NCBI RefSeq assembly: GCF_001678845.1
Contig: NZ_MAIQ01000007.1
Location: 1 to 64,000 of the forward strand
DNA from: Christensenella intestinihominis
GTDB taxonomy: Bacteria; Bacillota; Clostridia; Christensenellales; Christensenellaceae
Direction of reading: 5' to 3'
Length of the DNA: 64,000 nucleotides
A model generated the notes under the pieces. That model ran no database searches and was not told the origin of the DNA. It was given only the letters and a program-made list of their open reading frames with translations. Of this stretch, positions 41,173 through 57,453 are shown one piece after another. Each line of letters begins with the position of its first letter. Position 1 is the stretch's first letter. The position numbers and the translations under genes were made by a program.

Positions 41173-42282
41173 TTATTCCTTGTTTACCTTCTGGCGGTAT
41201 GCCTCCATTTCCCAGTTGGCAATAAAATCAATGAGTTCAGGAGTCATGTGCAGCGGTCCGCCGAAGCTTTCCGAATAAACTGCAATTTTGACCGCGTCGA
41301 GGAACAGCATTTTAGAGGTCGACACATCCTTATCCGTATCGCCGAGGATAAAAGCGCCGAACCCTTTTACGCAGACAACCTTGGGCGCATAGCCGGTTTT
41401 ATCCGTGAATTCCTTGAATTTTACATCCATAAGCTCCGGGGATTCCGTGTACAGGAATTCCGCTTTGCAATAGACGATATGGTCGGGCGTGAATGCCGCG
41501 GAAAGAGGCGAAAACGCATGCCTTGAGGCCACGAGGGAAAGAATTTCCTGATTGCATAAAAGGTCGGCTTTTCCGTTTGGGGAATAGAGCGCCGCCAGCT
41601 CCCGCTTCAGGGATTCCGCCTTACCTGCATCACAGGACGCTGCCGAAAAATCCGGCGTACGGCCGAGCCTGCTGCGTAAGCGTTCCATTACATGCTCCAT
41701 CAGCGCGTCGATTTCTTCGCGCGTATCGGCCGCAATGAAAATACCGTGGTTCTGGAGCAGCAGGATTTGTGCTTCCTTGCCCTGCGCCGCCTTATATTCC
41801 GAAAGCTTTTCCCGGCAGAGAAGGGAAAGCACATAGCCGGGACGGGAAAGCGGAATCCACACGTGTTCCCCGGGCAGAAGCTCCGCCGCGATTTTTTCTC
41901 CGTCCTGCCCGCAGGTGAGCCCGTTTACCAGGGCGGGGTGCACGTGCAAAATCAGCCGGAAGGGAAACAGGTTGTGCAGCGTGGTCTCCACGCTCGGCCG
42001 TTTATCTTCAAAGCCGGGGAGCCGTGCGGCCATCATGTCCGCGAGCGAAGCCGCTTCGCGTTCCTTGTCGCCCTGCGGGTAATCCGCCGTCATCATGGCA
42101 TTGAGTTTTGCACGGTCCATCCCCACAAAGCCGTCCGCCGTTATGGTTGCAAGCGTTGTGCCCGAGCCCTTGATATACATTTCGCTGTCATCTTTCAGGG
42201 AAGTATTGCCGCCGCCGGCGAGAACATAGTCCTCATTGCTGCCGTAGTCATTTGAAAGTTTTACCAGTTCCGTAAGATTCAA
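41173..42282 (-). CDS. Class II aldolase, RhaD-like (stand-alone aldolase domain)
   Basis: A zinc-dependent aldolase, 369 aa, similar in layout to the aldolase half of bifunctional rhamnulose-1-phosphate aldolase/lactaldehyde dehydrogenase proteins but without the dehydrogenase half. Expected active-site residues are present: base E99 (SVETTLHN), zinc ligands H113 and H115 (LHVHPA) and H179 (QNHGIF). The start is TTG 42282, with gagggag upstream. It is divergent from the PHP gene and sits at the left edge of the microcompartment locus, so it probably cleaves a 6-deoxyketose-1-phosphate to DHAP and lactaldehyde. Confidence 0.85.
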   Translation of the reverse strand: MNLTELVKLSNDYGSNEDYVLAGGGNTSLKDDSEMYIKGSGTTLATITADGFVGMDRAKLNAMMTADYPQGDKEREAASLADMMAARLPGFEDKRPSVETTLHNLFPFRLILHVHPALVNGLTCGQDGEKIAAELLPGEHVWIPLSRPGYVLSLLCREKLSEYKAAQGKEAQILLLQNHGIFIAADTREEIDALMEHVMERLRSRLGRTPDFSAASCDAGKAESLKRELAALYSPNGKADLLCNQEILSLVASRHAFSPLSAAFTPDHIVYCKAEFLYTESPELMDVKFKEFTDKTGYAPKVVCVKGFGAFILGDTDKDVSTSKMLFLDAVKIAVYSESFGGPLHMTPELIDFIANWEMEAYRQKVNKE

Positions 42283-42322
42283 TTTCGCTCCCTCTTTTCC
42301 TGAATTTTATTCAGATTTTCCT

Positions 42323-42350
42323 TTGAAAATCATAGTAAACATGGTATAGT
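42323..42350 (+). promoter_or_regulatory. Promoter of the PHP gene
   Basis: TTGAAA (42323-42328) and TATAGT (42345-42350, with TG extension) are 16 bases apart. The divergent spacer to the aldolase is AT-rich and should also hold the minus-strand promoter, which I could not fix. Confidence 0.6.
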
Positions 42351-42476
42351 AAAAATAATTTGAACAAATTGCACACTACTTCTTGATTATATGTGATTCT
42401 TTTGTGCTTTTCAACAAAAAATAATGTGAAAAAATAACAAAATGTTGAGGAACCGCGAAACAGGGAGGAAAAACCA

Positions 42477-43763
42477 ATGAACAAGGAAACACTGCTACAG
42501 GAATTGAACGCCCCGGAAAAAGAAAACCGGCTTGAAGCGCTGCGCGGCCTGCGCGCATTGCTTAACGCGGGAGAAATTGAAGAGCCCCTGCGTACGGCAG
42601 ACACCAATAACCACGTCCATACGACGTATTCCTTTTCGCCCTATTCGCCGGCGGCGGCGGTCTATCACGCTTATATGAGCGGACTATGCACGGTGGGAAT
42701 CATCGACCATGATTCGATCAGCGGGGCGCGGGAATTTATCGAGGCGGGAGAAATTATGGGGATTACCACGACAATCGGCTGTGAAGTACGCGTGAGCTTT
42801 GCGGACACCCCCTTTAAAGGGCGTACGCTGAACAACCCCGACGAGCCGACGGTGGCCTATATTGCCCTGCACGGACTGCCGCATAACCAGATCGACGCGA
42901 TGGACGGGCTGCTTGCGCAGATACGCATAAAACGCAACGAACGGAACCGGAAACAAGTGGAAAAGCTCAATGAAATCATGGAGCCCTACGGCCTCGTGCT
43001 TGATTTTGAAGCGGATGTGGAGCCTCTTTCCATGGCGCACGACGGGGGAAGCGTCACGGAGCGCCACATATTATTCGGACTCACGAAAAAGCTGATTGAG
43101 AAGTATGGCAGGGGAGAAAAACTGATTCGTTTCCTTGAGAACGACATGGGAATCGGCCTTAAGCCGAACGTAAAAAAGATGCTCGAAGATACGGAATTTT
43201 TTGCCTATGAATACGACGTGCTGAACGTCCTGAAATCGGAGCTTGTGCCGAGGTTCTTTATCGCGCAGGGGGAAGACAGCTTCCCGGTGAAAAAAGTGGT
43301 GGACTATGCCCGCACCCTGGGAGTGATTCCCACCTATTGTTATCTTGGGGATGTGGCCGAATCGCCGACCGGCGATAAAAAGGCGCAGAAATTTGAGGAC
43401 GAATTCCTCGACGACCTCTTCCCTTATGTGAAGGAGCTTGGCTTTGAAGCGCTTTCCTATATGCCGTCGCGCAACACAATGGAACAGCTTGCGCGCGTGA
43501 TGGACAAATGCAGGGAGCTCGACTTTTTTGAAATTTCCGGGGAAGATATTAACCAGCCGCGCCAGAGCTTTATTTGCATGAAGCAGCGCGACGATGCGTT
43601 CAGGCACCTTTCGGATAATACATGGGCGCTTGTGGGGCATGAAAATGCGGCGACGCTCAACCCGGAGGAAAGCATTTATTCGGAAAAAATGAAACGGGAG
43701 TATCCGCAGCTTAAGGATCGTGTGGCGCATTTTAAGGAAATTGGACTTAAGTACAGGAAATAA
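42477..43763 (+). CDS. PHP-domain metal-dependent phosphoesterase-like protein
   Basis: A 428-aa protein with PHP-type metal-binding motifs: NNHVHTT (H46, H48) and IIDHDS (D77, H78, D79), followed by GCEVRV with a probable ligand Glu. PHP enzymes hydrolyse phosphate esters, so it may act on a sugar phosphate or nucleotide. Its place between two aldolases in a microcompartment locus suggests removal or recycling of a phosphorylated intermediate, but this is inference. The ATG follows aggagg, and a terminator follows the gene. Confidence 0.8.
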   Translation: MNKETLLQELNAPEKENRLEALRGLRALLNAGEIEEPLRTADTNNHVHTTYSFSPYSPAAAVYHAYMSGLCTVGIIDHDSISGAREFIEAGEIMGITTTIGCEVRVSFADTPFKGRTLNNPDEPTVAYIALHGLPHNQIDAMDGLLAQIRIKRNERNRKQVEKLNEIMEPYGLVLDFEADVEPLSMAHDGGSVTERHILFGLTKKLIEKYGRGEKLIRFLENDMGIGLKPNVKKMLEDTEFFAYEYDVLNVLKSELVPRFFIAQGEDSFPVKKVVDYARTLGVIPTYCYLGDVAESPTGDKKAQKFEDEFLDDLFPYVKELGFEALSYMPSRNTMEQLARVMDKCRELDFFEISGEDINQPRQSFICMKQRDDAFRHLSDNTWALVGHENAATLNPEESIYSEKMKREYPQLKDRVAHFKEIGLKYRK

Positions 43764-43784
43764 GCCGGAAGATAGATGCGAAGG

Positions 43785-44009: not shown

Positions 44010-45167
44010 ATGGCGCAAAGAATTATTTTGAATGAAACATCATATTTTGGGCAGGGCGCGCTCCTGAACCTGCCGGAAGAAATCAGGAGGAGGGGCTTTC
44101 GCAAAGCGCTTGTTATAACGGATTCCGATCTGGTAAAATTTGGCGTTGCCGCGAAAGTCACGGATATCCTCGATGCAAACGGTATGGCATATAATATTTT
44201 TTCACAGGTAAAAGCAAACCCAACGGTGGAAATTGTCAAAAGGGGAGTGAACGCGTTTTGCGCAAGCGGCGCGGATTACCTGATCGCCATTGGCGGCGGC
44301 TCGTCGATCGATACGGCGAAGGCGGTGGGGATTATTATCAGCAATCCGGAGTTTGCGGATGTTGTGAGCCTCGAAGGAACGGCGAATACGCGAAACAAGG
44401 CGGTGCCGACGATTGCCATCCCGACAACCGCCGGAACGGCGGCGGAGGTGACGATCAATTATGTGATTACGGATGAGGAAAGAAAACGGAAATTTGTATG
44501 TGTGGATGTGCATGACATTCCGCAGGTTGCAATCGTCGATCCGGAAATGACGGCCTCCATGCCGCGCGGGCTTGCGGCTTCCACCGGGATGGACGCGCTT
44601 ACGCATGCCATCGAGGGATATGTTACCAGGGGCGCGTGGGAAATGACGGATATGTTCCACCTGCAGGCGATCGGGATGATCGCGAAAAACCTCAAAAACG
44701 CGGTGGACGGCGATATGAAGGCCAGGGAGGAAATGGCGAATGCGCAGTATATTGCGGGGATGGGCTTTTCCAATGTGGGCCTTGGCGTGGTGCACGGCAT
44801 GGCGCATCCCTTGGGGGCGTTTTACGATACGCCGCACGGCGTTGCCAATGCGGTCCTGCTGCCGTATGTGATGGAACATAACCAGGACGCGACAGGGGAA
44901 AAATACCGTGAAATCGCCCGGGCGATGGGCGTTGCCGATGTGGACGGCATGAGCCGGGAGGAATACCGCAGGGCGGCGGTGGAAGCGGTGCGCGCGCTCT
45001 CGCGGGCGGTGGAGATACCGCAGACGCTTGCCGAAATCGGCGTGAGGGCGGAAGACCTTGAAGAGCTCGCAAAATCGGCATTCTGCGACGTATGCACGGG
45101 CGGAAACCCCAAGGATATGACGGAAGAAAGCATTCTCGGCGTATACCGCTGGGCGCTTAATGGATGA
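44010..45167 (+). CDS. fucO: Lactaldehyde reductase / 1,2-propanediol oxidoreductase
   Basis: An iron-dependent group III alcohol dehydrogenase that reduces L-lactaldehyde to 1,2-propanediol with NADH. The 385-aa sequence follows E. coli FucO almost throughout (RIILNETSYFG, YLIAIGGGSSIDT, IPTTAGTAAEVTINYVITDE). The iron ligands D195, H199, H262 and H276 match its ligands shifted by one. No targeting extension is visible at either end. Strong aaggagg precedes the ATG. In this locus it would consume the lactaldehyde made by the aldolases. Confidence 0.94.
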   Translation: MAQRIILNETSYFGQGALLNLPEEIRRRGFRKALVITDSDLVKFGVAAKVTDILDANGMAYNIFSQVKANPTVEIVKRGVNAFCASGADYLIAIGGGSSIDTAKAVGIIISNPEFADVVSLEGTANTRNKAVPTIAIPTTAGTAAEVTINYVITDEERKRKFVCVDVHDIPQVAIVDPEMTASMPRGLAASTGMDALTHAIEGYVTRGAWEMTDMFHLQAIGMIAKNLKNAVDGDMKAREEMANAQYIAGMGFSNVGLGVVHGMAHPLGAFYDTPHGVANAVLLPYVMEHNQDATGEKYREIARAMGVADVDGMSREEYRRAAVEAVRALSRAVEIPQTLAEIGVRAEDLEELAKSAFCDVCTGGNPKDMTEESILGVYRWALNG

Positions 45168-45247: not shown

Positions 45248-46534
45248 ATGAATTTTCATTTATTGCATCCCGCAGACCAGATTTGCATGATGATGGAACG
45301 CATTTATGCGTTTGGTATGACGACGACTTCGGGCGGGAACCTTTCGATTAAGGATTCGGACGGCGATATCTGGATCACGCCCGGATCAATCGACAAGGGG
45401 ACGCTTACGCGCGAGGATATTATGCAGGTAAAGCCGGACGGTACGGTGATCGGCCCGCATAAGCCGTCGGTGGAGCTGCCGTTCCACAAAATGGTGTATG
45501 AGAAACGGCCGGACCTGAAGGCGGTGCTGCACGCGCATCCACCGGCGCTGGTGGCCTATTCCGCGCTTGATAAAAAGCCGCAGACGGAGATGATCGCAAG
45601 CGTGAATTATGTCTGCAACAATGTGCAGGCGGCGGGTTATGCGCTCCCGGGCTCCAAGAAGCTCGGCGACCTTATTGCGCAGAAATTCGAGGAAGGCTCG
45701 GATATCGTGATGATGGCGAGCCACGGCGTTGTCGTGGGTGCGCAAAACCTGTTTGACGCATTCATGAAATTTGAGACGCTGGACTATTGCGCGCGCATCG
45801 AGATCAACGCCGCGCCCCTTGGAAAGCCGCGTATCCTTACGCCGGAGGAGCTGAATATGTATTATATGCGGTCTTTTCCGCAGCTCGAGGATTATTACCC
45901 GGGGGAATACGGCTCGGCAGAACGGTATTACCGCTCGGCAATGTGCAAATTTATCCGCCGGGCCTATAACCAGCAGCTCTTCACCTCCACCCAGGGGACC
46001 TTTTCGCGCAGGCTGCCCGACGGTTCGTTTATCATTACGCCCTATAATAAGGACAGGATGTACCTCGAACCCGAGGATATCGTAAATATCCGCAATAGGC
46101 GTAAGGAGCAGGGCAAAAATCCTTCGCGGGCCGTGAAGATGCACCAGGCGATTTATGAAAAGCATCCGGATATCAATGCCGTTGCCATCGCCCATCCGCC
46201 CAATATTATGGCGTTTGCGGTCACGGGAGCGGAATTTGACGCGCGGCTGATCCCGGAAAGCTATATTATGCTCAAGCAGGTACAGCGCCTGCCGTATGGT
46301 TCCAACCTTCTCGAGCACAACCAGGTGGTCGATACGATTTCCATGAAAAACCCGGTGGAAATCATTGACAATGACTGCGTGGTGATCGCGGGTTCCGGGC
46401 TCCTCAATGTATTTGACCGGCTCGAGGTGTTGGAGTATTCCGCAAAGTCTGTACTCGCGGCCAGGCAGCTCGGCGAACCGGGCACCATCACGCCGGAAGA
46501 GGTTAAAGAGATCGAGGTGGCGTTTAAGCTGTAG
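45248..46534 (+). CDS. Tandem class II aldolase-like protein, second domain degenerate
   Basis: A 428-aa protein of two adducin/aldolase-type domains. The first (1-200) keeps the active site: E76 (PSVELPFH), H95 and H97 (LHAHPP) and H159 (ASHGVVV). The second (about 225-425) aligns with it but has A295 for the Glu, I314 for the first His and S393 for the third, keeping only H316. It cannot bind catalytic zinc normally and may be structural or regulatory. It follows fucO by 80 bases with aaaggag. A terminator closes this transcript before the shell genes. Confidence 0.88.
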   Translation: MNFHLLHPADQICMMMERIYAFGMTTTSGGNLSIKDSDGDIWITPGSIDKGTLTREDIMQVKPDGTVIGPHKPSVELPFHKMVYEKRPDLKAVLHAHPPALVAYSALDKKPQTEMIASVNYVCNNVQAAGYALPGSKKLGDLIAQKFEEGSDIVMMASHGVVVGAQNLFDAFMKFETLDYCARIEINAAPLGKPRILTPEELNMYYMRSFPQLEDYYPGEYGSAERYYRSAMCKFIRRAYNQQLFTSTQGTFSRRLPDGSFIITPYNKDRMYLEPEDIVNIRNRRKEQGKNPSRAVKMHQAIYEKHPDINAVAIAHPPNIMAFAVTGAEFDARLIPESYIMLKQVQRLPYGSNLLEHNQVVDTISMKNPVEIIDNDCVVIAGSGLLNVFDRLEVLEYSAKSVLAARQLGEPGTITPEEVKEIEVAFKL

Positions 46535-46554
46535 TTAGCTAGGATAACCGGATA

Positions 46555-46586
46555 AGGCCCGTTCCCTTTTGGGAGCGGGCCTTTTT
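46555..46586 (+). terminator. Rho-independent terminator
   Basis: Twelve-base stem aggcccgttccc / gggagcgggcct and a T run. Confidence 0.9.
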
Positions 46587-46733: not shown

Positions 46734-46762
46734 TTGACATAAATATAACTTAGTAGTAAGAT
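46734..46762 (+). promoter_or_regulatory. Promoter of the shell operon
   Basis: TTGACA (46734-46739) and TAAGAT (46757-46762) are 17 bases apart, in a very AT-rich 260-base spacer. Upstream, gttgttaaa at 46621-46629 resembles half of a Rex site, but the second half is missing. Confidence 0.75.
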
Positions 46763-46794: not shown

Positions 46795-47196
46795 ATGAAA
46801 GTAAACAAATCGGAACTCGACCAGCTGGTAAAAAGTGCGATTGGTTCGGGCTCGGTACGCAATGCGGATACTCCTAAATTTGCGGACGATTCTTCAATCG
46901 GAGAGGTTAAATCTTTGATTGGGAAGGTAACGCCGCCGCCGCTTAAGAAATTCAAGATCACGGTGGAGCGCGTAGAGGGCACGTGCGTTGCGCGCCATTC
47001 GGAAGGCGAGACCTTTTATATGGAAGGAGATAAAACGCCTGAAGGAATTTGCATTCCTGCCTTTTCCGGGCTGCTGCCTTATATCAATGCAATGATCTGC
47101 AATGCGGATTTCTGGTGGGAACCGGTCAAGGGAAAAATCCGGCTCGGCTGCCCGGACCCGGATAACCATGTTACGTTTTCCATCGAAGAGGTTTAA
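46795..47196 (+). CDS. TIGR04076-like protein with an encapsulation-peptide-like N-terminus
   Basis: First gene of the shell operon, 133 aa. The domain from about residue 50 shows the TIGR04076 pattern (FKITVERVEGTC, TPEGIC, CPDPDN); C64, H68, C86, C102 and C119 could bind a metal or act in redox. Residues 1-18 form a short amphipathic helix (KSELDQLVKSAI) joined by a Gly/Ser-rich linker, the usual look of peptides that steer enzymes into microcompartments. It may therefore be cargo. The reaction is unknown. The ribosome site is agggggcc, a little weak. Confidence 0.8.
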   Translation: MKVNKSELDQLVKSAIGSGSVRNADTPKFADDSSIGEVKSLIGKVTPPPLKKFKITVERVEGTCVARHSEGETFYMEGDKTPEGICIPAFSGLLPYINAMICNADFWWEPVKGKIRLGCPDPDNHVTFSIEEV

Positions 47197-47590
47197 TTAC
47201 AATCGGAACGAAAAGGCTGTCAAAGCCGGGACGCAGCAGCGGTTAATACAAGCGCCTGGATCGAGTGTCCCCCGACATACGATATGCGGTATCGGGCGGC
47301 AAGGCGCGAAGGAAAATCCGCATCGTCGGGCAGGTTCCATGTTTCAAAAATTCGTATCTTTACAAATTATTATACAAAAAGATTCGGTTGCAATTCAATA
47401 ACTTTTTAGCAGCGAAAACGAAACGGATTTTAAAACAATATATACAAAAAGCATGGGAAACTTACCCAATGCGGGCAGTACGGGACCCTGCCGCGCTGCA
47501 ATGAAGCTTATTGGGGATTACCGGCCATGAAACAGCGGGGACAAGCCGGGACTTTTGGCAGGACAGGAATCTTGAAGGAGTATGACGGGA
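47197..47590 (+). other. Unexplained 394-base gap before the shell genes
   Basis: No convincing gene. The first 150 bases are GC-rich with possible pairing (for example ccgacatac with gtatcgg), and the next 120 are AT-rich. It may be an untranslated leader, an RNA element or remains of a gene. I compared it with the c-di-GMP riboswitch because of gggacgcag, but the other conserved parts are missing. Confidence 0.4.
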
Positions 47591-48190
47591 ATGGGAAACG
47601 CTCTTGGATTGCTCGAAGTACGGGGGCTTGCATCGAGTATTACGGTAACGGATACAATGATGAAAGCGGCGGATACGCTGCTGATCGATGTAAAAAAGGA
47701 TATGGGCGGCGGCCTTGTGACGATCGTGGTGGAAGGAAATACAAGCGCGGTTTCGGCGGCGGTGCAGGCAGGAGCGGCCGCGGCGGAGCAAACAGGCGAA
47801 GTGATTGCGTATCGGATTATGGCGAATCCCGACTCGCAGACGCGCATGTATCTCGATAATTCCTACCGCGGGAAACAAATTACCTTTGGACGGGAAGCCT
47901 GCGGCATCATTGAGGTTTATGGCTTCGTATGTGCAATGACAGCCGCAGATGCGGCGGTAAAAGCGGCGGATGTGCGGCTGGTAGGCATGGAACGTACGAA
48001 GGGGGAAGAAGGCATAGGCCTGATCGTGGCCTTGAAATTGGCGGGAATTCCGGATGCGGTCAAAAGCGCGGTGGACGCCGGGCTTTTGGCGGCGCGTGAG
48101 GTTGGGGACGTGATTTCCTCAAACGTGAATGCGCTTCCGTCGGAGGGGATTTACCCAATGATCCAATACACCAACTTGAAGAGTGACTGA
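47591..48190 (+). CDS. Microcompartment shell protein, tandem BMC domains (BMC-T trimer)
   Basis: A 199-aa shell protein of two BMC folds (about 3-85 and 100-185), each starting with the typical pattern (ALGLLEVRGLASSI and ACGIIEVYGFVCAM). Three copies form a pseudo-hexagonal tile. The central-loop sequences are DMGGGLV and EEGIGLI, so no cysteine lines the pore. The ATG at 47591 has aaggag 10 bases upstream; the ATG at 47582 lies too close to it. Confidence 0.92.
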   Translation: MGNALGLLEVRGLASSITVTDTMMKAADTLLIDVKKDMGGGLVTIVVEGNTSAVSAAVQAGAAAAEQTGEVIAYRIMANPDSQTRMYLDNSYRGKQITFGREACGIIEVYGFVCAMTAADAAVKAADVRLVGMERTKGEEGIGLIVALKLAGIPDAVKSAVDAGLLAAREVGDVISSNVNALPSEGIYPMIQYTNLKSD

Positions 48191-48194
48191 GAAG

Positions 48195-48554
48195 ATGGCA
48201 AAGAAAAAAAGGACCACCAGCGTTGGAAGGGCAGGAACATCCGCCGCCGAACGGAAGAAGACGCCGGAGGCAAAGACGGGGGATGCGCTTGGAATTGTGG
48301 AATGCCGGGGGATTACGGCGGCAATTGAAGCGGCTGACAGCATGGTGAAAACGGCGGATGTTGAAGTGATCGGGACCCAAAAGATAGGAAACGCCCTGAT
48401 TTATACAGTTGTTACGGGGAAAGTGGACGCGGTCCGGGAGGCGGTAAAAGCCGGAGGCGAAACGGCGCGGAGACTGGGCGAGCTTTATGCGGCGCACGTG
48501 ATGCCGCGGCCGGAGGATGTGGTATTCGAGATCGTAAAAATTATTTCAGGATAA
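48195..48554 (+). CDS. Microcompartment hexameric shell protein (BMC-H) with basic N-terminal extension
   Basis: A 119-aa single BMC-domain protein. The BMC fold covers about 30-118 ([20 protein letters not shown]). It differs from the next two shell proteins in two ways: a Lys/Arg-rich N-terminal extension of about 28 residues and a pore loop KIGNALIY instead of KIGSGY. The extension could bind cargo, nucleic acid or the membrane. It starts just after the preceding shell gene; GTG 48183 in the same frame would overlap it. Confidence 0.88.
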
Positions 48555-48571
48555 GAAAGGAGAGCGAAAAA

Positions 48572-48880
48572 ATGGCGAAGGAAGCGTTGGGTATGGTAGA
48601 AACGCGGGGGCTTACGGCGTTGGTCGAGGTCGCGGACGCGATGGTGAAAGCGGCGAATGTGAAGCTTGCGGGAATGGAAAAAATCGGTTCGGGCTATGTG
48701 ACCGTAATGGTAACGGGCGATGTAGGCGCGGTAAAGGCGGCTGTAGAAGCAGGCTCGGCAGCGGTAAACGGCCTCGGCGAACTTGTTGCCGCGCATATTA
48801 TTCCCAGTCCGCATGCGGATGTGGAAAAAATATTGCCCGGGAGCCAGGCGGCAGAAATTAAAGTGGAAGAAATCGGATAA
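48572..48880 (+). CDS. Microcompartment hexameric shell protein (BMC-H)
   Basis: A PduA-like 102-aa hexamer subunit beginning [20 protein letters not shown]. The pore loop reads KIGSGYVT; PduA has GSGL there. A short C-terminal tail ([12 protein letters not shown]) extends beyond the domain. aaaggagag precedes the ATG. It is closely related to the following gene and is probably one of the main facet components. Confidence 0.95.
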
Positions 48881-48898
48881 AAAACGGAGGAAAAAATC

Positions 48899-49177: not shown

Positions 49178-49197
49178 GTTAGAAGGGAAGTGCCGTT

Positions 49198-49476: not shown

Positions 49477-50027
49477 AAAATTTGGGGGTTGCGGTCGGGA
49501 TTGCCGAATTCCAAAGCATTGCCGAAGGAATCGCGGGCCTCGACCATGCAGTGAAAAATAACGATATTCGCCTGCTGCGTGCGGGGATGATATGCCCGGG
49601 GGGTTACCTGCTGGTTTTTGGCGGAAGGTATGCGGAGGTTTATGGCGCGGTCCATATGCTGCGCGCAAAGCATCTTCCGGTATTGAGGGACTCGGTGGTG
49701 ATCGGAAACCTGAGCAACGGAATCCTGGAACGCCGGCCGGAAGGGGCGAACACCGATGCGCTGGGCATAATCGAGACGCCGGACGCGGCAAGCGCAGTCT
49801 ATGCCGCGGATGAGGCGGTAAAGACATCCGGCGTATGGATACGGGAATTGCGGCTGGCGAATGGAATCGGCGGCAAAGGGATCGTAATCCTTTGCGGCGG
49901 TATTGCGGAAGCCGCCGCCGCGGTGGAAAAAGCCTCCCTGCTGTGCAGGGCGCGGAATAAGTTTATAGCAGGCACGGTTGTGACAAATCCGCATGAGCAG
50001 ACATGTAAAACATTATTTGGGACTTAA
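49473..50027 (+). CDS. PduT-like tandem-BMC shell protein with Fe-S pore cysteine
   Basis: A 184-aa protein, the same length as PduT of the propanediol microcompartment. The first-domain pore loop ICPGGYLLVFGG (C41) corresponds to ICPGKFLLMLGGD of PduT, where the cysteine from three subunits holds a 4Fe-4S cluster in the central pore. The second domain also matches (NGIGGKGIVI). It should pass electrons across the shell or deliver Fe-S clusters. Coupled to the vertex gene by ATGA. Confidence 0.92.
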   Translation: MKNLGVAVGIAEFQSIAEGIAGLDHAVKNNDIRLLRAGMICPGGYLLVFGGRYAEVYGAVHMLRAKHLPVLRDSVVIGNLSNGILERRPEGANTDALGIIETPDAASAVYAADEAVKTSGVWIRELRLANGIGGKGIVILCGGIAEAAAAVEKASLLCRARNKFIAGTVVTNPHEQTCKTLFGT

Positions 50028-50045
50028 TATTCTGGAGGTAAGGTT

Positions 50046-50660
50046 ATGTGCAATTTTGGCAATGATTATATGAGGTGCAAAATCATCAATACAGGACGGC
50101 TGATGTTCGACAGGCAGCTCACCGACGCGGGCGGCGGGAATATCAGCGTGCGGCATAACGGACTGATTTATGTCACGCCGATGATGGCGGGAGAGAAATT
50201 ACGGTGGCAGCTCCAGCCGGATGATTTGATTGCGCTCGACGAAAATACATTGGAGGTTGTGGAGAACGACCCGACCATGATGACGCGCGAAAGCATGATG
50301 CATCTTGGCATTTACGAAGCGATTCCCGAGGTCGGCGCGGTGCTGCATGCCCATCCGAGGTATTGCCTTGTTTACGCGGCGGCGAAAAAAAGACTGGACG
50401 TCTACACGGAAAATTTTGAATATTTTGCGGGCGGCCCGATGGAATGCGTCAAAGAGGTTGCGGGTACGTCTCCTGAACTCGCAAAAGAGGTGATCGCGCA
50501 CTTTTACAACCGGCGCAGTGAAATCCCGGAACGGGCGGTTGGCGCGCTGATTCCTAATCACGGTATCGTGATTGCGGCAAAGGACCTCGACGAGGCGTTT
50601 ACGCTTCTTGACAACGCGGAGGTCAATGCGATGGTCGGTTTATTCCAAAAGCTTTTGTAA
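50046..50660 (+). CDS. Class II aldolase (fuculose/rhamnulose-1-phosphate aldolase type)
   Basis: A 204-aa single-domain aldolase, close in size to FucA. It has the catalytic base E82 (TRESMMH) and zinc ligands H101, H103 (LHAHPR) and H172 (PNHGIV). It lies between shell genes and rhamnulokinase, so its probable reaction is cleavage of a 6-deoxyketose-1-phosphate to DHAP and lactaldehyde. It has no N- or C-terminal targeting peptide that I can see. tggagg precedes the ATG. It is the third aldolase-type gene in the locus. Confidence 0.9.
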   Translation: MCNFGNDYMRCKIINTGRLMFDRQLTDAGGGNISVRHNGLIYVTPMMAGEKLRWQLQPDDLIALDENTLEVVENDPTMMTRESMMHLGIYEAIPEVGAVLHAHPRYCLVYAAAKKRLDVYTENFEYFAGGPMECVKEVAGTSPELAKEVIAHFYNRRSEIPERAVGALIPNHGIVIAAKDLDEAFTLLDNAEVNAMVGLFQKLL

Positions 50661-50665
50661 AAGCG

Positions 50666-52057
50666 ATGGCAGCGGCAAAAAAAGTGCTGGCGCTTGATTA
50701 CGGCGCCGGCAGTATGCGGAGCATAGAAGGGAATTTTGACGGCGGCCGGCTTGAATGCCGGGAGCTGCTGCGCCGTGGGAACGAGTTGGTGCACGTGAAG
50801 GGGAACCTTTTCTGGGATATCGGGACGATGCACCGGTTCGCGGTGGAATCGATCGGATGTGCGGAAAACATAGATTCGGTGGGAATCGACACATGGGGCG
50901 CGGATTTCGGAATGCTGGACGGGAACGGGAGGCTCCTGTTCCTGCCGCGGACCTACCGCGACCCGCAGGTCCAGGAATTTGCGGAAGAAGTATTTTCCAC
51001 CATTTCAGAGTATGAGCTTTTTGAAAGCAACGGCACCATAATAGAAGATATCTGTCCGCTTGTGCACCTGTGCTATTGGAAAAAATATGCGCCGGACTGG
51101 TTCAATAAGACGCGGACGATCCAGCTGATGGCCAACCTGATCTGTTATCTGCTTACCGGGGAGGCGACCTTTGACAATACCTTAGCCAGCCCGTCCGGAA
51201 TGTACAGCCTTGCGCGGGACGATTGGAACATGGAGATCATGGAGCGGCTCGGGCTTCCCGACATATTGCCGCAGACAGCGGAGCGAAACGATATCCTGGG
51301 AATGACGGGGGTCCCCGAGGGGGGCGGGAAAATTCCGGTGATGCGAATTTGCGGGCACGATACATCTTCGGCCCTTATGGCGGTGCCCGCCTGCCATGCA
51401 GGGAAGGCCCTCTACGTGAGCACGGGGAGCTGGGTTATGACCGGCTGCTTCCTGCAAGAGCCTGTGATTACCCGGGAGGCTTTTGAAGCGGGGCTCAGCA
51501 ATGAGAACGGCTTTGACGGGGAGATCAATTTCCTGAGGTATTCCAATGGACTGTTTATTGTGCAGGAGTGTGCGCGGGAATGGAAAACGGAAGGCTGGGA
51601 AATGGATTACGGGTTCCTGGAACGGGGAGCAAAGGAAGCCCGTTACGGGGGATATATCGATCCGGACAGCCCGGAATTTACCAGGCCCGGCGGAATGCAG
51701 GAAAAAATCCTGGCATATATGGAACGCACGGGGCAGCCGAAGCCTGACGGAAGGGCGCAAATCTATGCGGCAATATTGAACGGGATTGCAAATACCGCAG
51801 CGAGGACGGTAAAAGATATTGTCCGCATCCTTAACGACAGGGAATTCGATTGTATTTACGTACTGGGCGGCGGCGCGAACAGCGCCTACCTTTGCAATGA
51901 GATAAAAAGAAAAACAGGACTCAGACTGTACGCGGGTCCCGTGGAAGCGACGGCGATCGGCAACATTTGCACCCAATTGATCCGGCAAAAAGAACTTTTG
52001 AACAGGTCGGAAGCGGCAAGCCTGCTGCGTGGTTCGACAAAAATTCTTGAATTTTAA
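50666..52057 (+). CDS. rhaB: Rhamnulokinase-like FGGY sugar kinase
   Basis: Phosphorylates a ketose at C1. The 463-aa protein starts with the phosphate-binding motif LALDYGAGSMRSIEG and contains IDTWGADFGMLD and VLGGGANSAYLCNEIKRKTG, the pattern of RhaB rather than fuculokinase. Length is normal. It begins 6 bases after the aldolase stop, without a clear own ribosome site, so translation is probably coupled. L-fuculose is a possible alternative substrate. Confidence 0.9.
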   Translation: MAAAKKVLALDYGAGSMRSIEGNFDGGRLECRELLRRGNELVHVKGNLFWDIGTMHRFAVESIGCAENIDSVGIDTWGADFGMLDGNGRLLFLPRTYRDPQVQEFAEEVFSTISEYELFESNGTIIEDICPLVHLCYWKKYAPDWFNKTRTIQLMANLICYLLTGEATFDNTLASPSGMYSLARDDWNMEIMERLGLPDILPQTAERNDILGMTGVPEGGGKIPVMRICGHDTSSALMAVPACHAGKALYVSTGSWVMTGCFLQEPVITREAFEAGLSNENGFDGEINFLRYSNGLFIVQECAREWKTEGWEMDYGFLERGAKEARYGGYIDPDSPEFTRPGGMQEKILAYMERTGQPKPDGRAQIYAAILNGIANTAARTVKDIVRILNDREFDCIYVLGGGANSAYLCNEIKRKTGLRLYAGPVEATAIGNICTQLIRQKELLNRSEAASLLRGSTKILEF

Positions 52058-52119
52058 AACTTCATATAAGGAAAGACCTGATTACAATTCTACAATCAAA
52101 TAACAAGGAGGAAAATTTG

Positions 52120-53160
52120 ATGAGGAAAATGAAGCGGTTTGCGTTTGTTGTAGTTGTGGTTATGCTGGCGGGTATGCTGTTTGCGTGCGCGCCTGCGGGG
52201 ACTCAGGACAGCGGGGCTCCTGAAGAATCCGCCAAGGAAAGTATTGCCGCGGTAGAGGACACCAACGGCGATGGAAAAATTAAAATTGGCGTCCCGGTTT
52301 TCAACCTTGGGCACACGTACTGGGTATCCTGGGTTGATGAGATTGAAAAGCTGGCCGAGGAAAAGGGCTTCGAGGTAATCTCCGCGGATAGTAAATTCGA
52401 CGCCGCAAAACAGGTGAACCTCATGGAGGACATGATCGCCCAGGGCTGCGACGCGATTATCCTTTGCCCGGTGGACCCGGGTGGAGTGGGCGTTGTTATT
52501 AAGGAAGCGGAAAACGCGGGCGTACGCGTGATTTTAAGCGACCTTGACGTTGTTGACGGGGACGGAAACCACGTTGCCTCCGGACTTGTTGGAATTGAAA
52601 CCTATGAAACGGGCAAGCTGGAAGGAAAATGGGCGGCAGATTACGCGAAAGAACATTTTGATGGAAAAGCAAACGTCGCCGTACTCTCCTATCCGGCGGA
52701 ACAGCCGTGCCTCGATGCGGAAAACGGCTTCCTGGAAGGACTGAAGGGCGAGCTTGGGGAAGAAAATGTGAAGGCGGTAATCATGAACGGCCAGGCGGAA
52801 ACGGAAAAGGGCATGACCGTCACGGAAAACATCCTGTCCGCAAACGATGATATTAATATGCTGTGGGGCGCGAATGTCGAGTGCACCCTTGGCGGAGTGG
52901 CGGCGATGGAGTCGCGCGGGATGACGCAGGACGACGCGGTGGCGTGCGCGTTTTATACCAACCCGGACGTTATGGAATTAATCCAGGCGGACGGATCGAT
53001 GTTTAAGGTCACCATGCATCTGCCGCCGCGCGTGATGGCGGATACTGCCGTTGATATGGCGCTCAAAGCGGTCAATGGGGAAGAGTTTGAATATGAGATC
53101 AAGGTGCCGTTCGAGCTGTGTGACAAGACGACGGTAGAAGAGTTGATGAAAGAAGAATAG
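52120..53160 (+). CDS. Sugar ABC transporter substrate-binding lipoprotein
   Basis: A 346-aa precursor with lipobox LFAC (C23) and a ribose-binding-type domain. The mature protein includes IKIGVPVFNLGHTYW and the DLDVVDGDGNHVASGL loop. It is distinct from the binding protein at 16 kb. Strong aaggagg precedes ATG 52120 (TTG 52117 is also in frame). Its neighbours point to a 6-deoxyhexose such as rhamnose or fucose, or the corresponding ketose, as ligand. Confidence 0.92.
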   Translation: MRKMKRFAFVVVVVMLAGMLFACAPAGTQDSGAPEESAKESIAAVEDTNGDGKIKIGVPVFNLGHTYWVSWVDEIEKLAEEKGFEVISADSKFDAAKQVNLMEDMIAQGCDAIILCPVDPGGVGVVIKEAENAGVRVILSDLDVVDGDGNHVASGLVGIETYETGKLEGKWAADYAKEHFDGKANVAVLSYPAEQPCLDAENGFLEGLKGELGEENVKAVIMNGQAETEKGMTVTENILSANDDINMLWGANVECTLGGVAAMESRGMTQDDAVACAFYTNPDVMELIQADGSMFKVTMHLPPRVMADTAVDMALKAVNGEEFEYEIKVPFELCDKTTVEELMKEE

Positions 53161-53170
53161 TCTTGAATAT

Positions 53171-53196
53171 TGCGGGAGGCCTGCGGGCCTCCCGCA
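53171..53196 (+). repeat. Strong hairpin between binding-protein and ATPase genes
   Basis: Arms tgcgggaggc and gcctcccgca pair perfectly. There is no T run after it. It occupies the same place as the hairpin at 17141-17174 in the other sugar transporter operon. Confidence 0.8.
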
Positions 53197-53215
53197 GCCA
53201 AAAGGAGATAAGCAT

Positions 53216-54715
53216 ATGGGAACGATATTGAGCGTTAAAAATATCAGCAAATCATTTCCCGGCGTAAAGGCTCTTGACGACGTATCCCTTGATGTAAAAA
53301 GTGGGGAAATACACGCCCTTCTGGGAGAGAACGGCGCGGGTAAGTCCACATTCATAAAGATTGTTTCGGGTGTATTCCGCGCGGATGAAGGCGAGATATT
53401 TATGGGCGACCGGAAAATCGACGTCAAAAGCCCGGCCGATGCGGTGGAGGCGGGAATCAGCGTGGTGCACCAGGAACTGAACATCGTACCGTGGCTGGAC
53501 GTTGCGACCAATTTTATGCTGGGGCAGGAAAAAACAAAGAAATTTTTGCATATAATCGATAAAAAATATTCCATACAAAAAGCGCAGGAGAGCCTTAAAC
53601 GGCTCGAGTTTGACATCGACGTTACCAAAAAGATGCAGATGCTGTCCTTTGCCGAGCAGCAGATGGTGGAAATTGCCAAGGTTATCAGCACGAATCCCAA
53701 GGTGGTGATACTGGACGAACCGACGGCGGCGCTTGCGCAGCAGGAACGGGCAAACCTCTACCAGGTTGTAAACGCCCTGAAGGAGCAGGGCGTGGGTATC
53801 ATTTATATCACGCATATTTTCGAAGAGGTATTCGAGCTGGCGGACCGCGTGTCGGTGCTGCGCGACGGGCAATATATCGGCACGGAGGAACGGGAAAACC
53901 TCGATGAAAAAACGCTGATTAAGATGGTGGTCGGCCGCGAGGTAAAAAGCGTGCCAAGGGAATCGATCGCGACGGATGAAGTGGTTCTGGAAGTGAAGGA
54001 CCTGAACGTGGAAGGAAAACTCCATGATATCAATTTCAACCTGAAACGCGGTGAAATTTTAGGCTTCGCCGGTCTTGCCGGAGCGGGCAGGAGCGAGATC
54101 ATACGGGCCGTATTCGGTGCGGACAGGAAGGATTCCGGTGAAATATGGATCGAAGGGGAACGGGTAGAAATCGACTCGCCCTATGACGCGTACCAGGCAG
54201 GTATCGCGCTGGTGCCCGAGGAACGGAAATCCGAAGGGCTGATGATGGAAATGACGATGGAATATAACAATGCGTGCGCAAGCCTGTTCAAGACGACGAA
54301 TAAAGCCGGTATGATTTCCTATAAAAAGGTAAGGCAAAGAGCGTATGAAGCGGTCAAAAAATTTGAAATCAGCCCGCCGGACGTGCTGCGGAAGGCAAAG
54401 CTGTTCAGCGGCGGAAACCAGCAGAAGATCGTCGTCAGCAAATGCGTGAGCGCCGACCCCAAGGTGTTGTTGGTTGACGAGCCGACGCGCGGTGTGGACG
54501 TGGGCGCAAAAGAAGAAATCCATGCGATACTGGATGAAATGGTAAAAGAAGGAAAGAGTATTATTGTGGTTTCCTCGGAGCTGCTGGAGGTTCTTAAGCT
54601 GAGCGACCGGGTACTTGTTGTACGCGACGGGCGCATTGTGGCGGAGCTTACCAAGGAAGAAGCGGGACAAGAGGTCATTATGCAATATGCGATGGGGGGA
54701 AGTAGTCATGAGTAA
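53216..54715 (+). CDS. Sugar ABC transporter ATP-binding protein (two ATPase domains)
   Basis: A 499-aa CUT2-class ATPase. The first domain has GENGAGKST and VILDEPTAAL. The second has GLAGAGRSE, where the usual lysine of Walker A is replaced as in many second halves of this class, with FSGGNQQKIVV and LLVDEPTRGVD. aaaggagat precedes the ATG. The permease start lies 8 bases inside its end. Confidence 0.95.
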   Translation: MGTILSVKNISKSFPGVKALDDVSLDVKSGEIHALLGENGAGKSTFIKIVSGVFRADEGEIFMGDRKIDVKSPADAVEAGISVVHQELNIVPWLDVATNFMLGQEKTKKFLHIIDKKYSIQKAQESLKRLEFDIDVTKKMQMLSFAEQQMVEIAKVISTNPKVVILDEPTAALAQQERANLYQVVNALKEQGVGIIYITHIFEEVFELADRVSVLRDGQYIGTEERENLDEKTLIKMVVGREVKSVPRESIATDEVVLEVKDLNVEGKLHDINFNLKRGEILGFAGLAGAGRSEIIRAVFGADRKDSGEIWIEGERVEIDSPYDAYQAGIALVPEERKSEGLMMEMTMEYNNACASLFKTTNKAGMISYKKVRQRAYEAVKKFEISPPDVLRKAKLFSGGNQQKIVVSKCVSADPKVLLVDEPTRGVDVGAKEEIHAILDEMVKEGKSIIVVSSELLEVLKLSDRVLVVRDGRIVAELTKEEAGQEVIMQYAMGGSSHE

Positions 54716-55706
54716 TGGTAGTCAGTCTAAAGCACTAAATTCAATCAAAAACTGGTATGCGACATCCAAACAGGAAGCGGGATTGTATATTGCCCTGGTG
54801 GCGCTGATAATATTCCTTTCGATTGCATCCCCGGCGTTCCTTAACGCGGAAAACATACTGAATATCATACGCCAGGTATCGATTGTAGGGATTATCGCCA
54901 TTGGCGGCTTTATGGTTATATTGACGGGCGGGATGGATATCTCGGTCGGGTATGTTGCGGCGCTCACCGGCATCGTGGTGGCGAAGCTGACCATTGACAT
55001 GAATGTGCCGATGCCGCTCTCTATTACGGCCGGAATGTGCGTTGGACTCCTGGCGGGCCTTTTAAACGGCACGCTTTCAACCTACCTGAACCTTCCGTCC
55101 TTCATCGTGACACTCGGAACGATGCAGATTTGCCAGGGAGCGGGATATGTCGTTACACAGGCAACGCCGATTTCCAATTTCCCGGAAAGCTTTGTGGAAC
55201 TTGGCAGGGGATATTTGGGGCCGATTCCAATTCCCGTAATCATTTTGGCTGCGCTCTACATTTTCATGTCGCTGTTCATGAAATATTCCAAATTCGGCAC
55301 CTATTGTTATGCGCTTGGCGGCAACAAGGAGTCGGCGCGCCTTTCCGGGATACGCGTCAACAGGATTCAGGTTCTTGTATATATCCTGGGCGGCCTGTTC
55401 TCCTCCTTGGGAGGATTGATCGTCGCCGCGCGTACAAACGCGGGCTCTGCGCAAGTAGGCGGCACCTACCTGTTTGACGTGTTTACGGCCTGCGTACTCG
55501 GGGGCACGGCGCTTTCAGGCGGGATCGGGCGCCTGCCGGGCGTAGTGGTCGGGTGTATCTTTGTGGGAATCCTCAACAACGGGCTAGTACAGCTTAACGT
55601 GGATTCCTTCTATCAAATGATGGTGCAGGGGATTGTGCTGGTGATTGCGGTGGTGCTGCAGTCGCTGATGACGCGCGAAAAACGCAAAAAAAGCAATAAG
55701 CAGTAA
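54708..55706 (+). CDS. Sugar ABC transporter permease (RbsC type)
   Basis: A 332-aa membrane protein with the coupling loop FGTYCYALGGNKESARLSGI and the C-terminal GGIGRLPGVVVGCI stretch. The real start is ATG 54708, overlapping the ATPase gene, with ggggg upstream; the frame opens earlier inside the ATPase. It completes the importer of the microcompartment locus. Confidence 0.95.
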   Translation: MSNGSQSKALNSIKNWYATSKQEAGLYIALVALIIFLSIASPAFLNAENILNIIRQVSIVGIIAIGGFMVILTGGMDISVGYVAALTGIVVAKLTIDMNVPMPLSITAGMCVGLLAGLLNGTLSTYLNLPSFIVTLGTMQICQGAGYVVTQATPISNFPESFVELGRGYLGPIPIPVIILAALYIFMSLFMKYSKFGTYCYALGGNKESARLSGIRVNRIQVLVYILGGLFSSLGGLIVAARTNAGSAQVGGTYLFDVFTACVLGGTALSGGIGRLPGVVVGCIFVGILNNGLVQLNVDSFYQMMVQGIVLVIAVVLQSLMTREKRKKSNKQ

Positions 55707-55714
55707 GAGGAAAG

Positions 55715-55732: not shown

Positions 55733-55879
55733 TGGAAAAGCCTTCATGAAAGCATCAGAAAAATAACGTAAAATTGCATATTTTCATATAAAATAGAATT
55801 TGAAACAACACGGCCATGAAGAAATACGCTTTTAAATAATATTTTCATTTTTTTGGGAACCGGTGACAAGGACATTATA

Positions 55880-55908
55880 TTGACAGGCAAACTGATTTAA
55901 GAGATACT
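55880..55908 (+). promoter_or_regulatory. Promoter of the rex gene
   Basis: TTGACA (55880-55885) and GATACT (55903-55908) with a 17-base spacer, about 33 bases before the start codon. Confidence 0.65.
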
Positions 55909-55940
55909 TAAGTGAGTCAAAAGAAAGGGAGCTGTTTTGT

Positions 55941-56600
55941 ATGTCGGGACAATACAGGGATTATCCGAAGCATTTAATCAGGAAACTTCCCAGATATTAT
56001 CGGTATTTAAATGAACAGAAACAGTTCGGCAGGGAATATATTTCATCGAACGAACTGGCCTCGCTGATGGGGATATCGCCCTCGCAGGTGCGGCAGGATT
56101 TCAACCGTTTTTTATACAACGGGTATCATGGCGTGGGCTATAACGTTTCGGCGATCCTCGAGCAAATAACCGAATTGCTGGACCTGAAAACAAAGAAAAA
56201 TACCATTATCATCGGGGCTGGGAACCTGGGACAGTCGCTCAGCAATTATGATGAGCTCAAAAATTGCGGATTTGAAATCAAGGCGTTCTTTGATATCAAT
56301 CCGAAGCTGGCAGGCGCGGTAATCAACGGGATCAGGGTTTTCGATATGGACCAGCTCGGGGAATATATCGGGGCGGAAAATATCGTTGCGGCAATTTTGG
56401 CGCTGCCCACGGAAGGGACGAGCGAGATTGCGCGTAAAATCAGCGAGTATGGAGTAACGATGTTCCTGAATTTCAATCCGGTTTTCTTTGAATTTGAAAG
56501 AGACGTTTTCATCGAAAATGTGCATATTGACGACAACCTGATGATGCTTTCCTATAAAGGAGCCCACGGAGGGGCGGGAGAGCAGAAGGATGAAGAATAA
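55941..56600 (+). CDS. rex: Redox-sensing transcriptional repressor Rex
   Basis: Senses the NADH/NAD+ ratio and represses fermentation genes. The 219-aa protein has an N-terminal winged helix (ISSNELASLMGISPSQVRQDFNRF) and a Rossmann domain with IIIGAGNLGQSL. The C-terminal domain-swap helix region is shortened and ends in an acidic tail. aaagggag precedes the ATG. Being placed in the microcompartment locus suggests that it ties lactaldehyde reduction to redox state, although it may control other genes too. Confidence 0.92.
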   Translation: MSGQYRDYPKHLIRKLPRYYRYLNEQKQFGREYISSNELASLMGISPSQVRQDFNRFLYNGYHGVGYNVSAILEQITELLDLKTKKNTIIIGAGNLGQSLSNYDELKNCGFEIKAFFDINPKLAGAVINGIRVFDMDQLGEYIGAENIVAAILALPTEGTSEIARKISEYGVTMFLNFNPVFFEFERDVFIENVHIDDNLMMLSYKGAHGGAGEQKDEE

Positions 56601-57453
56601 AACAGGAATTTTCTATGGGTTCTGGGCGCGCGATTTTGATGTGGATTATGTGGCGTTCACAAAGAAAATTGCGGGGCTTGGGTTTGGAGCGGTGGAGCTT
56701 GTTGCGGAATCCGTACGGAAGATGGACCCGCAGGAACGCGAGGTTTTAAAAAAGACGGGAAGGGACCTTGAGGTTGAATTTGTACTTGCGTCCGATCCCC
56801 CGGCGCAATATGATATTTCTTCGCCGGATGCGGCGACGCGGGCGGCGGCAATCGAGTACCTGAAAGGGTATTTTGATATTGCGGCGGAGCTTGGCGCGAA
56901 AACCGCCTGCGGAATTGTCAACGGCATATGGAATTCAAAAATCATAGACAGCAAGGAAGCGCATACCGCGCGCTCCGTTGAAAGCATGGCGGCGCTGGCC
57001 CCGTATGCGGAGGGCTTGGGCGTGGAGATATGCCTCGAGCTGGTAAACCGCTATGAACATTTTATGCTCAATACGGGAGCGGAAGCGCTGGCATACCTGG
57101 AAGCCGTTGGCAGCGGGAATGTTAAAATCCAGTTTGATACCTTTCACATGAATATAGAAGAGGACAGCTTTGCGCAGGCCATTCTCGATGCGGGAGAGCA
57201 TATTGGCTACATGCACCTTGGGGAAAACAACCGCCGTCCGCCGGGGCGCGGTTTCCTGCCGTGGGCGGAAATTTTCGGCGCGCTCAAAAAGGTTGGTTAC
57301 GAAGGAAAAATAACGCTTGAACCGCTTGTGCAAAGGGGCGGGGAGATCGGCGACGCCTGCTCGATTTGGCGTGATGTTATGCCGGGTGCGGATTTTGACG
57401 AAGAGGCGCGGCGTTCGCTTGCCTTTGTGAAGGAAGCGTGGGATCGCGCATAA
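56590..57453 (+). CDS. Sugar epimerase/isomerase (TIM barrel, ketose 3-epimerase-like)
   Basis: A 287-aa protein of the xylose isomerase-like superfamily. Four expected metal ligands are visible: E150 (CLELVNRYEH), D183 (FDTFHMN), H209 (YMHLGENNR) and E244 (LEPLV), with the same spacing as in D-tagatose 3-epimerase. It probably interconverts ketoses and could feed rhamnulose or fuculose to the kinase. No aldose isomerase (RhaA/FucI) is in the window. Its start lies inside the end of rex (11-base overlap). Confidence 0.85.
   Translation: MKNKTGIFYGFWARDFDVDYVAFTKKIAGLGFGAVELVAESVRKMDPQEREVLKKTGRDLEVEFVLASDPPAQYDISSPDAATRAAAIEYLKGYFDIAAELGAKTACGIVNGIWNSKIIDSKEAHTARSVESMAALAPYAEGLGVEICLELVNRYEHFMLNTGAEALAYLEAVGSGNVKIQFDTFHMNIEEDSFAQAILDAGEHIGYMHLGENNRRPPGRGFLPWAEIFGALKKVGYEGKITLEPLVQRGGEIGDACSIWRDVMPGADFDEEARRSLAFVKEAWDRA

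Follow-up and report, generated by a model that had tools for sequence, protein, structure and literature searches.

The first contig-27 stretch of the Christensenella intestinihominis genome (bases 1-64000, 64 kb, hereafter the window) carries at 41173-57453 a locus that encodes a complete bacterial microcompartment (BMC) shell together with a class II aldolase, a sugar kinase and a sugar importer. We propose, with a probability of about one half, that this shell surrounds the class II aldolase encoded at 50046-50660, that it is kin to the fucose/rhamnose (GRM5/PVM-like) lineage while resembling the published compartment category BUF, and that it contains an aldehyde which is vented by reduction. 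In the usual scheme of catabolic microcompartments, an aldehyde-producing enzyme is combined with a CoA-acylating aldehyde dehydrogenase (AldDH), a phosphotransacylase (PTAC) and an alcohol dehydrogenase, and the cofactors are recycled inside the shell. A conserved, complete shell without the AldDH-PTAC pair in a nearly complete genome (3,026,655 bases in 29 contigs, 99.94% complete, N50 of 294,532 bases, which is the length of contig C24) tests if aldehyde containment alone selects for a shell. The locus is also present in the cultured Christensenella minuta, which makes the question answerable experimentally. Both carriers are human gut species, and according to a review abstract the abundance of C. 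minuta in the gut is associated with leanness.

Probable shell operon and missing oxidative core

Genes were identified with Pfam and NCBIfam profiles, and relatives of solved structure served as second comparison. Six intact shell genes occupy positions 47582-50027 on the plus strand, the same strand as the aldolase, the FGGY kinase and the sugar importer, and open reading frames with the ends given here exist for all six. They encode BMC-T1 with two tandem BMC domains (47582-48190), BMC-H1 (48183-48554; domain at 48285-48512; translation probably begins 3' of the listed GTG), BMC-H2 (48572-48880), BMC-H3 (48899-49177), which is 80% identical to one of the shell proteins encoded at L096, a locus of the fucose/rhamnose type, the EutN/CcmL-type pentamer BMC-P (49198-49476) and BMC-T2, a PduT homologue with a CPGGY motif (49473-50027). 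A genome-wide domain search returned seven BMC-domain matches, all of them at this locus. The shell genes are followed, again on the plus strand, by the class II aldolase with intact zinc ligands (50046-50660), an FGGY kinase of the FucK/RhaB family (50666-52057) and the importer, consisting of a sugar-binding protein (52117-53160), an ATPase with two ABC domains (53216-54715) and a permease (54615-55706) whose listed start is probably too early. From BMC-T1 through the importer, neighbouring genes overlap or are separated by gaps of at most 59 bases. A first, sequence-only reading of this DNA had named six shell genes accompanied by class II aldolases, FucO, an importer, Rex and an epimerase, and the profile searches bear out this list. 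It had overlooked a PHP-domain gene (42477-43763), a TIGR04076 gene (46795-47196) and the PduT-type cysteine of BMC-T2.

The stretch 41173-57453 seems to comprise several transcription units. The compartment's own operon probably extends from 46795 to 55706, with FucO, the upstream aldolases, Rex and the epimerase as neighbours. Between the FucO-tandem aldolase unit and the shell operon lies a terminator-like hairpin of the intrinsic type (46554-46583, plus strand; 13-bp stem and T tail), which is the longest terminator-like stem in the region, and the corresponding place in C. minuta also bears a hairpin with T tail (-16.3 kcal/mol). It is followed by a promoter-like TTGACA-N17-TAAGAT (46734-46762, plus strand), near-identical in C. 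minuta, which marks the probable start of the shell operon.

The claim that the locus lacks an oxidative core is supported: neither AldDH nor PTAC gave a match in the 64-kb window, and PduS was not found in the locus stretch. Genome-wide, the PTAC (PduL) search returned 0 matches, with E. coli and T. maritima as positive controls. The Aldedh family yielded five matches in four genes of the genome, none of them PduP-type. One, on contig C29, is ExaC/BADH-like, and another, on C26, is MdlD-like. The third is an AdhE-type CoA-acylating AldDH of 462 amino acids (C26:30562), located beside a succinyl-CoA:acetate CoA-transferase and rpoN, and the fourth, a frame of 433 amino acids (C26:49383), is a gamma-glutamyl phosphate reductase (ProA) by its solved relatives. 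The AdhE-type enzyme scored 451 bits against the AdhE family, 419 bits against SauS and 246 bits against the EutE/PduP-like PRK15398, all below cut-off, and its alignment to the AdhE family begins at residue 10, so that there is no space for a targeting extension. No such extension was seen on the ExaC/BADH-like, MdlD-like and AdhE-type proteins. Hence, an AldDH and a PTAC with encapsulation peptides encoded elsewhere, the finding that the sequence-only reading had regarded as decisive against it, did not turn up: PTAC is absent from the genome and no peptide is present on the Aldedh proteins examined. Its further statement that reduction is the only visible fate of the aldehyde has to be narrowed, since the genome possesses the AdhE-type enzyme and two other aldehyde dehydrogenases, although none of them is linked to the shell genes or tagged. 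In the same region of C26 (L023, 6850-9918), the AdhE-type enzyme lacks a fused alcohol dehydrogenase and its gene is divergent from that of the CoA-transferase.

The absence of a diol dehydratase, which had also been claimed, holds for the locus itself as regards the GRE type. However, the window contains a glycyl radical enzyme (GRE) at 12871-15111, 26 kb before 41173, which shows 29-31% identity to the GRM5-type enzymes of sister loci and stays below all NCBIfam cut-offs. In total, four GREs are encoded in the genome; they share 26-31% identity with the GREs of the GRM5 loci L133 and L134, which are 75% identical to each other, and score 344-479 bits against the PFL2-3 subfamily cut-off of 678, compared to 816 bits for the L134 enzyme. 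The latter also remains below every equivalog, so that the lack of an equivalog alone means little. The GRE of the window stands in a row of genes (11625-19687) formed by a LacI-type regulator, the 746-amino-acid GRE with its radical-SAM activase and a complete sugar ABC importer. Another GRE of 816 amino acids with a GCVE motif is found on C12 (L020, 7653-14180; C12:356.7-363.2 kb), near a DeoR-type regulator, an activase and Zn-ADH-like and sugar-kinase-like proteins; because it shares the GCVE motif with the L133 and L134 enzymes, it could be a dehydratase of another substrate.

Conservation and known compartment types

In C. minuta, all 18 genes are present in the same order, with ratios of non-synonymous to synonymous substitution (dN/dS) of 0.005-0.10 (pairwise between the two species, own Nei-Gojobori script, synonymous sites partly saturated), values that indicate purifying selection on all of them and argue against chance or decay. 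Within the locus, the aldolase of the shell operon is under the strongest constraint (98% identity to C. minuta, dN/dS of 0.005). It gave a match at E<=1e-25 in 3 of 398 phylum genomes, own genome included, and the other two share 29% and 32% identity with it. BMC domains as such occur in 22 of 151 order genomes and 107 of 398 phylum genomes.

For the comparison of loci, we used 37 stretches of up to 20 kb, some of them on short contigs. In addition to the window and C. minuta, they comprise 35 stretches from the remaining shell-bearing places of the order sample; one place with a single BMC match (G418:C50) was left out. Three or more shell places were found in 23 of the 37 stretches, and 18 of these 23 contain an AldDH. 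Among the five AldDH-less stretches, L135 has PTAC and PduS, L179 has PTAC and L175, a contig of only 3.1 kb, has PduS, leaving the window and C. minuta as the only two of the 23 multi-shell stretches in which AldDH, PTAC and PduS are all absent. In the case of C. minuta this absence covers the locus stretch, and the genome-wide absence of PTAC covers C. intestinihominis. BMC-H1, BMC-H2 and BMC-H3 are closest to proteins of L096, L133 and L134, which are loci with FucA, AldDH, PTAC and PduS and, in two of three cases, a GRE. Their relationship to loci of the fucose/rhamnose type is consistent with a role in sugar-aldolase metabolism. No match to the operon kinase was obtained in any of 21 sister stretches.

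Within the genus, the picture is more diverse. Four stretches from three other genus genomes, L120 (G472), L121 and L122 (G508) and L123 (G536), represent different compartments with AldDH and PTAC, and three of the four include an ABC importer; the compartment type thus varies within the genus. Another genus member (G428) gave no BMC match.

Compared to known systems, the locus has much in common with GRM5 as found in Clostridium phytofermentans and represented by L133 and L134, namely a class II aldolase, the closest BMC-H proteins, a PduT-type shell protein and a CUT2-type sugar import. In contrast to GRM5, it lacks the GRE diol dehydratase, the activase, AldDH, PTAC and PduS, and it has its own kinase and importer inside the shell operon. 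All 57 GRM5 loci counted in a passage of PMC6325248 carry both PduT and PduS homologues (57/57), whereas here the PduT homologue is present and PduS is absent from the locus. With PVM and PVM-like compartments, the locus shares the class II aldolase as presumed signature enzyme, but it is devoid of AldDH and PTAC and no DeoR regulator was found among the genes scanned. Membership in GRM5 and PVM is therefore excluded by the defining features tested (AldDH and PTAC, for GRM5 also the GRE). Functionally, the locus would correspond to the aldolase half of GRM5/PVM compartments, the first part of their pathway.

The sequence-only reading had considered a purely reductive compartment to be unusual. 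Compartments without AldDH are, however, already described under the name BUF in passages of three publications (PMC4207490, PMC8217296, PMC8156839), and the locus shares with this category a full shell in the absence of AldDH, the published hallmark, and also of PTAC. It differs from the xanthine type BUF1 by its sugar kinase, aldolase and importer, and no amidohydrolase or xanthine-type enzymes were found among the locus genes scanned. The BUF definition of 2014 also excludes a core alcohol dehydrogenase; here, FucO adjoins the shell genes, apparently in a separate unit. The anaerobic fermentation of fucose and rhamnose in E. coli via FucO likewise uses a kinase, a class II aldolase and FucO and ends in a diol, but proceeds without a shell. 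As lactaldehyde is reduced and the diol secreted in E. coli (PMC3557285, in the part available), the reductive end belongs to ordinary metabolism and it is the surrounding shell that is unusual. No description of the locus appears in titles and abstract parts among the literature matches listed; the main text of the 2021 catalogue (PMC8217296), in the part available, does not mention Christensenella, and its supplement may list the C. minuta locus. Scans for named relatives used exact short peptide patterns. With the kinase pair one distant kinase (28%) was recovered and with the aldolase no relative was confirmed, and owing to these patterns an absence of relatives is not demonstrated by either scan.

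Proposed pathway and redox candidates

Because the locus lacks the usual aldehyde-oxidising enzymes, the aldehyde is probably disposed of by reduction. In the proposed pathway, an imported sugar would be isomerised by enzymes encoded elsewhere (FucI, RhaA), and the FGGY kinase would phosphorylate the ketose to a ketose-1-phosphate, which the aldolase inside the shell would split into dihydroxyacetone phosphate (DHAP) and lactaldehyde or glycolaldehyde. DHAP would enter glycolysis, and the shell would hold the aldehyde until its reduction to the diol, most likely by FucO, a lactaldehyde reductase of the Fe-ADH type (44010-45167, plus strand; 665 bits against an equivalog cut-off of 537). Electrons might be transferred across the shell by the TIGR04076 protein and the Fe-S shell protein of the PduT type, which would substitute for the missing AldDH and PduS. 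The proposed pathway would amount to the ordinary anaerobic 1,2-propanediol route, with a shell enclosing the aldehyde step.

The nature of the sugar is less clear. The assignment of the kinase as a rhamnulokinase stands only at the level of an FGGY kinase; its identity is not firm, since NCBIfam gives 243 bits for rhamnulokinase (cut-off 528) and 71 bits for fuculokinase, both far below cut-off, whereas the best relative of solved structure is L-fuculose kinase (4c23, 262 bits), ahead of rhamnulose kinase (2cgj, 169 bits). The genome encodes two RhaA-family proteins and a full FucI (C27:85153). According to the strain descriptions available in part, C. intestinihominis uses L-rhamnose, D-arabinose and D-tagatose and does not use L-fucose (PMC7937921), C. 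minuta is L-fucose positive, and rhamnose is used by both species (PMC7937921, PMC8289216). Enzyme families and sugar phenotypes together point to lactaldehyde or glycolaldehyde as product. The earlier designation as a deoxysugar locus is likely correct, but glycolaldehyde from ribulose-1-phosphate fits as well.

A second class II aldolase, with 34% identity to the compartment aldolase, was found on C1 (L140, 8068-10184), directly followed by a rhamnulokinase-like gene; this pair is likely a shell-free counterpart of the pathway.

Two proteins of the shell operon are candidates for redox functions. The first is the TIGR04076 protein of 133 amino acids (46795-47196, plus strand; 56.9 bits against a cut-off of 33), which has an N-terminal extension of about 50 residues. 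A search of 398 genomes gave 17 matches, own genome included. Residues 64, 86 and 119 are cysteines in 16 of 16 aligned sequences; this alignment contains the proteins of the window and C. minuta as well as 14 further homologues, whereas L157 and L158, also among the 16 others, were left aside due to a broken or unclear frame. In passages of PMC8667426, a TIGR04076 protein in the isethionate compartment locus of Bilophila is described as "potentially involved in redox reactions or iron cluster metabolism". The first 17 residues look like an encapsulation peptide, and the extension may serve as one. Cargo of this kind typically bears a terminal amphipathic helix followed by a variable linker, both lacking in homologues outside BMCs. 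In 11 of the 16 other homologues, at most 14 residues precede the match even if counted from the earliest start. Residues 1-17 are identical between the two species and the next seven differ at five places, and the alternation DQ-LV-KS-AI fits a signal-sequence description in part of PMC12108088. A profile built from 16 AldDH N-termini of sister loci ranked the protein 7th among 258 N-termini, at an off register, and thus did not single it out. The pattern of alternating pairs was matched by 3 of 258 N-termini, the TIGR04076 protein included, and is a poor test because it recognises just 2 of the 16 AldDH peptides; the hydrophobic moment (0.27, compared to 0.27-0.65 for AldDHs) is uninformative. 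In view of these weak profile, pattern and moment tests, targeting of the TIGR04076 protein is treated here as a hypothesis.

The second candidate is BMC-T2, which is homologous to PduT (E of 9e-22 to 3pac); in the alignment, the cysteine of its CPGGY motif occupies the position of the 3pac cysteine, and it is conserved in C. minuta. CPGGY fits the pore motif C-P/S/A-G-K/R/S-Y/F except for G at the fourth residue instead of K, R or S. PduT uses such cysteines to ligate a [4Fe-4S] cluster at its pore, as stated in passages of PMC6325248 and PMC2982820. The TIGR04076/PduT pair is a concrete candidate for electron flow across the shell, which is named as an open question in part of PMC6325248. 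A more far-reaching proposal would be a third metabolosome redox design, in which no NAD-linked cycle of AldDH, PduL and PduS exists and a lumen-targeted TIGR04076 protein passes electrons together with the PduT-type Fe-S pore, feeding a reductive aldehyde sink from the cytosol; we give this idea little credence at present.

Competing explanations and neighbouring genes

Several observations weigh against a shell-enclosed aldolase with reductive venting. Neither the aldolase nor the kinase of the operon carries an evident encapsulation peptide, and FucO, without targeting extension, resides in an apparently separate unit 5' of the shell operon. BMC-P, BMC-T1 and BMC-T2 have their best matches in L135, L130 and L135, respectively. 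The L-fucose phenotype differs between the two species though the locus is common to both. An untagged CoA-acylating AldDH exists elsewhere in the genome (C26:30562), and the 0 matches for the B12-dependent diol dehydratase (PF02286) coincide with control genomes that were silent too. With respect to the TIGR04076 protein, residues 25-51 of the extension are nearly identical again between the species, unlike a usual linker, and its peptide reached an in-register profile score of 2.3 bits, slightly below the 2.4-40.8 of the AldDH peptides of sister loci; 0.29% of all windows score at least as high. Its gene is separated from BMC-T1 by a gap of 385 bases (47197-47581). Finally, a region scan found 13 terminator-like sites versus 22.0 in shuffled sequence, and 28 promoter-like sites versus 16.9 (sd 4.5), which is a moderate excess; the operon borders are therefore likely, not proven, and are supported by the length of the stem and by position and conservation, but not by any scarcity of such sites.

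A place of FucO in the compartment is among the points of the sequence-only reading that are not supported: the gene, which is untagged and occurs without shell genes in the congener G472, apparently belongs to a unit set apart by the terminator-like stem. It is a real possibility, though one we would not bet on, that FucO, the PHP-domain protein and the tandem and RhaE-like aldolases form a cytosolic rhamnose module that merely adjoins a shell operon serving a different sugar, whose aldehyde sink would then be unassigned. The hairpin and the promoter-like site dividing the two units agree with such a module. Furthermore, the RhaE-like aldolase, PHP, FucO and tandem aldolase genes of G472 have a rhamnulokinase-like gene (474 bits, cut-off 528) as neighbour and no shell genes, which in this genome are located on another contig beside an AldDH; this also counts among the points against the proposed compartment. 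In the same direction, shell genes occur in only L078 (C. minuta) among 18 stretches around other tandem aldolase copies (L078-L095; several contigs short), and RhaA and a rhamnulokinase-like gene are found together on C26. On the other hand, the module adjoins the shell operon on the same strand in both species that possess this operon, and FucO is the only obvious aldehyde-handling enzyme nearby.

A compartment for glycolaldehyde, in which a ketopentose (e.g. D-ribulose, derived from D-arabinose via FucI) is converted to DHAP and glycolaldehyde and the latter to ethylene glycol, appears unlikely. FucK/FucA-like enzymes and FucI act on D-arabinose and D-ribulose. This activity, the presence of FucI, the position of the kinase nearer to FucK than to RhaB among solved structures and the D-arabinose-positive, L-fucose-negative phenotype of C. 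intestinihominis speak for it. Nevertheless, the nearest BMC-H proteins stem from FucA loci, NCBIfam places the kinase nearer to rhamnulokinase, C. minuta is positive for L-fucose and both species use rhamnose. We also consider it improbable that an oxidative route is encoded elsewhere, with a distant AldDH (C26:30562 or the aldehyde dehydrogenases on C29 and C26) oxidising the aldehyde and a CoA-transferase replacing PduL. Such enzymes do exist in the genome, the CoA-acylating one even beside a succinyl-CoA:acetate CoA-transferase, and the ACI type of BMC provides a precedent by keeping its AldDH on a satellite locus (PMC8217296, in the part available). But no AldDH is linked to shell genes, PTAC is missing genome-wide, and the CoA-acylating enzyme has neither space for a targeting extension nor a family score above cut-off. 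Least probable by far is a decayed, non-working compartment that lost its core from a former GRM5-type locus. The kinship of the BMC-H proteins to loci with a full core would agree with decay, yet the 18 genes are intact in two species under the constraint described above, and the operon kinase, which is without a match in the 21 sister stretches tested, is not a simple leftover of such a locus.

Regarding the neighbouring genes, the tandem class II aldolase (45248-46534, plus strand) has zinc ligands in its first domain, and the second is degenerate (IAH, SG). As query, it matched in 19 of 151 order genomes, own genome included, one of which (G437) matches one domain only. The PHP-domain gene (plus strand) lies upstream of FucO, and the RhaE-like class II aldolase (41173-42282, minus strand) resembles the aldolase half of rhamnulose-1-phosphate aldolase/dehydrogenases, has the zinc ligands E/HVH/H and is divergent from the locus. 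A riboswitch in the gap 47197-47581 was considered and rejected, as no match to an Rfam family in the window attained the gathering score (seven lax matches were far below), folding was unremarkable (z of -0.46) and the gap is poorly conserved relative to C. minuta. For the Rex operator, the consensus pattern tried gave 0 matches in the window versus 2.45 expected by chance, so that regulation by Rex is unsupported. The Rex redox-sensing repressor (55941-56600, plus strand) and the ketose 3-epimerase of the D-tagatose/D-psicose 3-epimerase family (56590-57453, plus strand) may form a separate unit, and a promoter-like TTGACA-N17-GATACT (55880-55908, plus strand) is located upstream of Rex.

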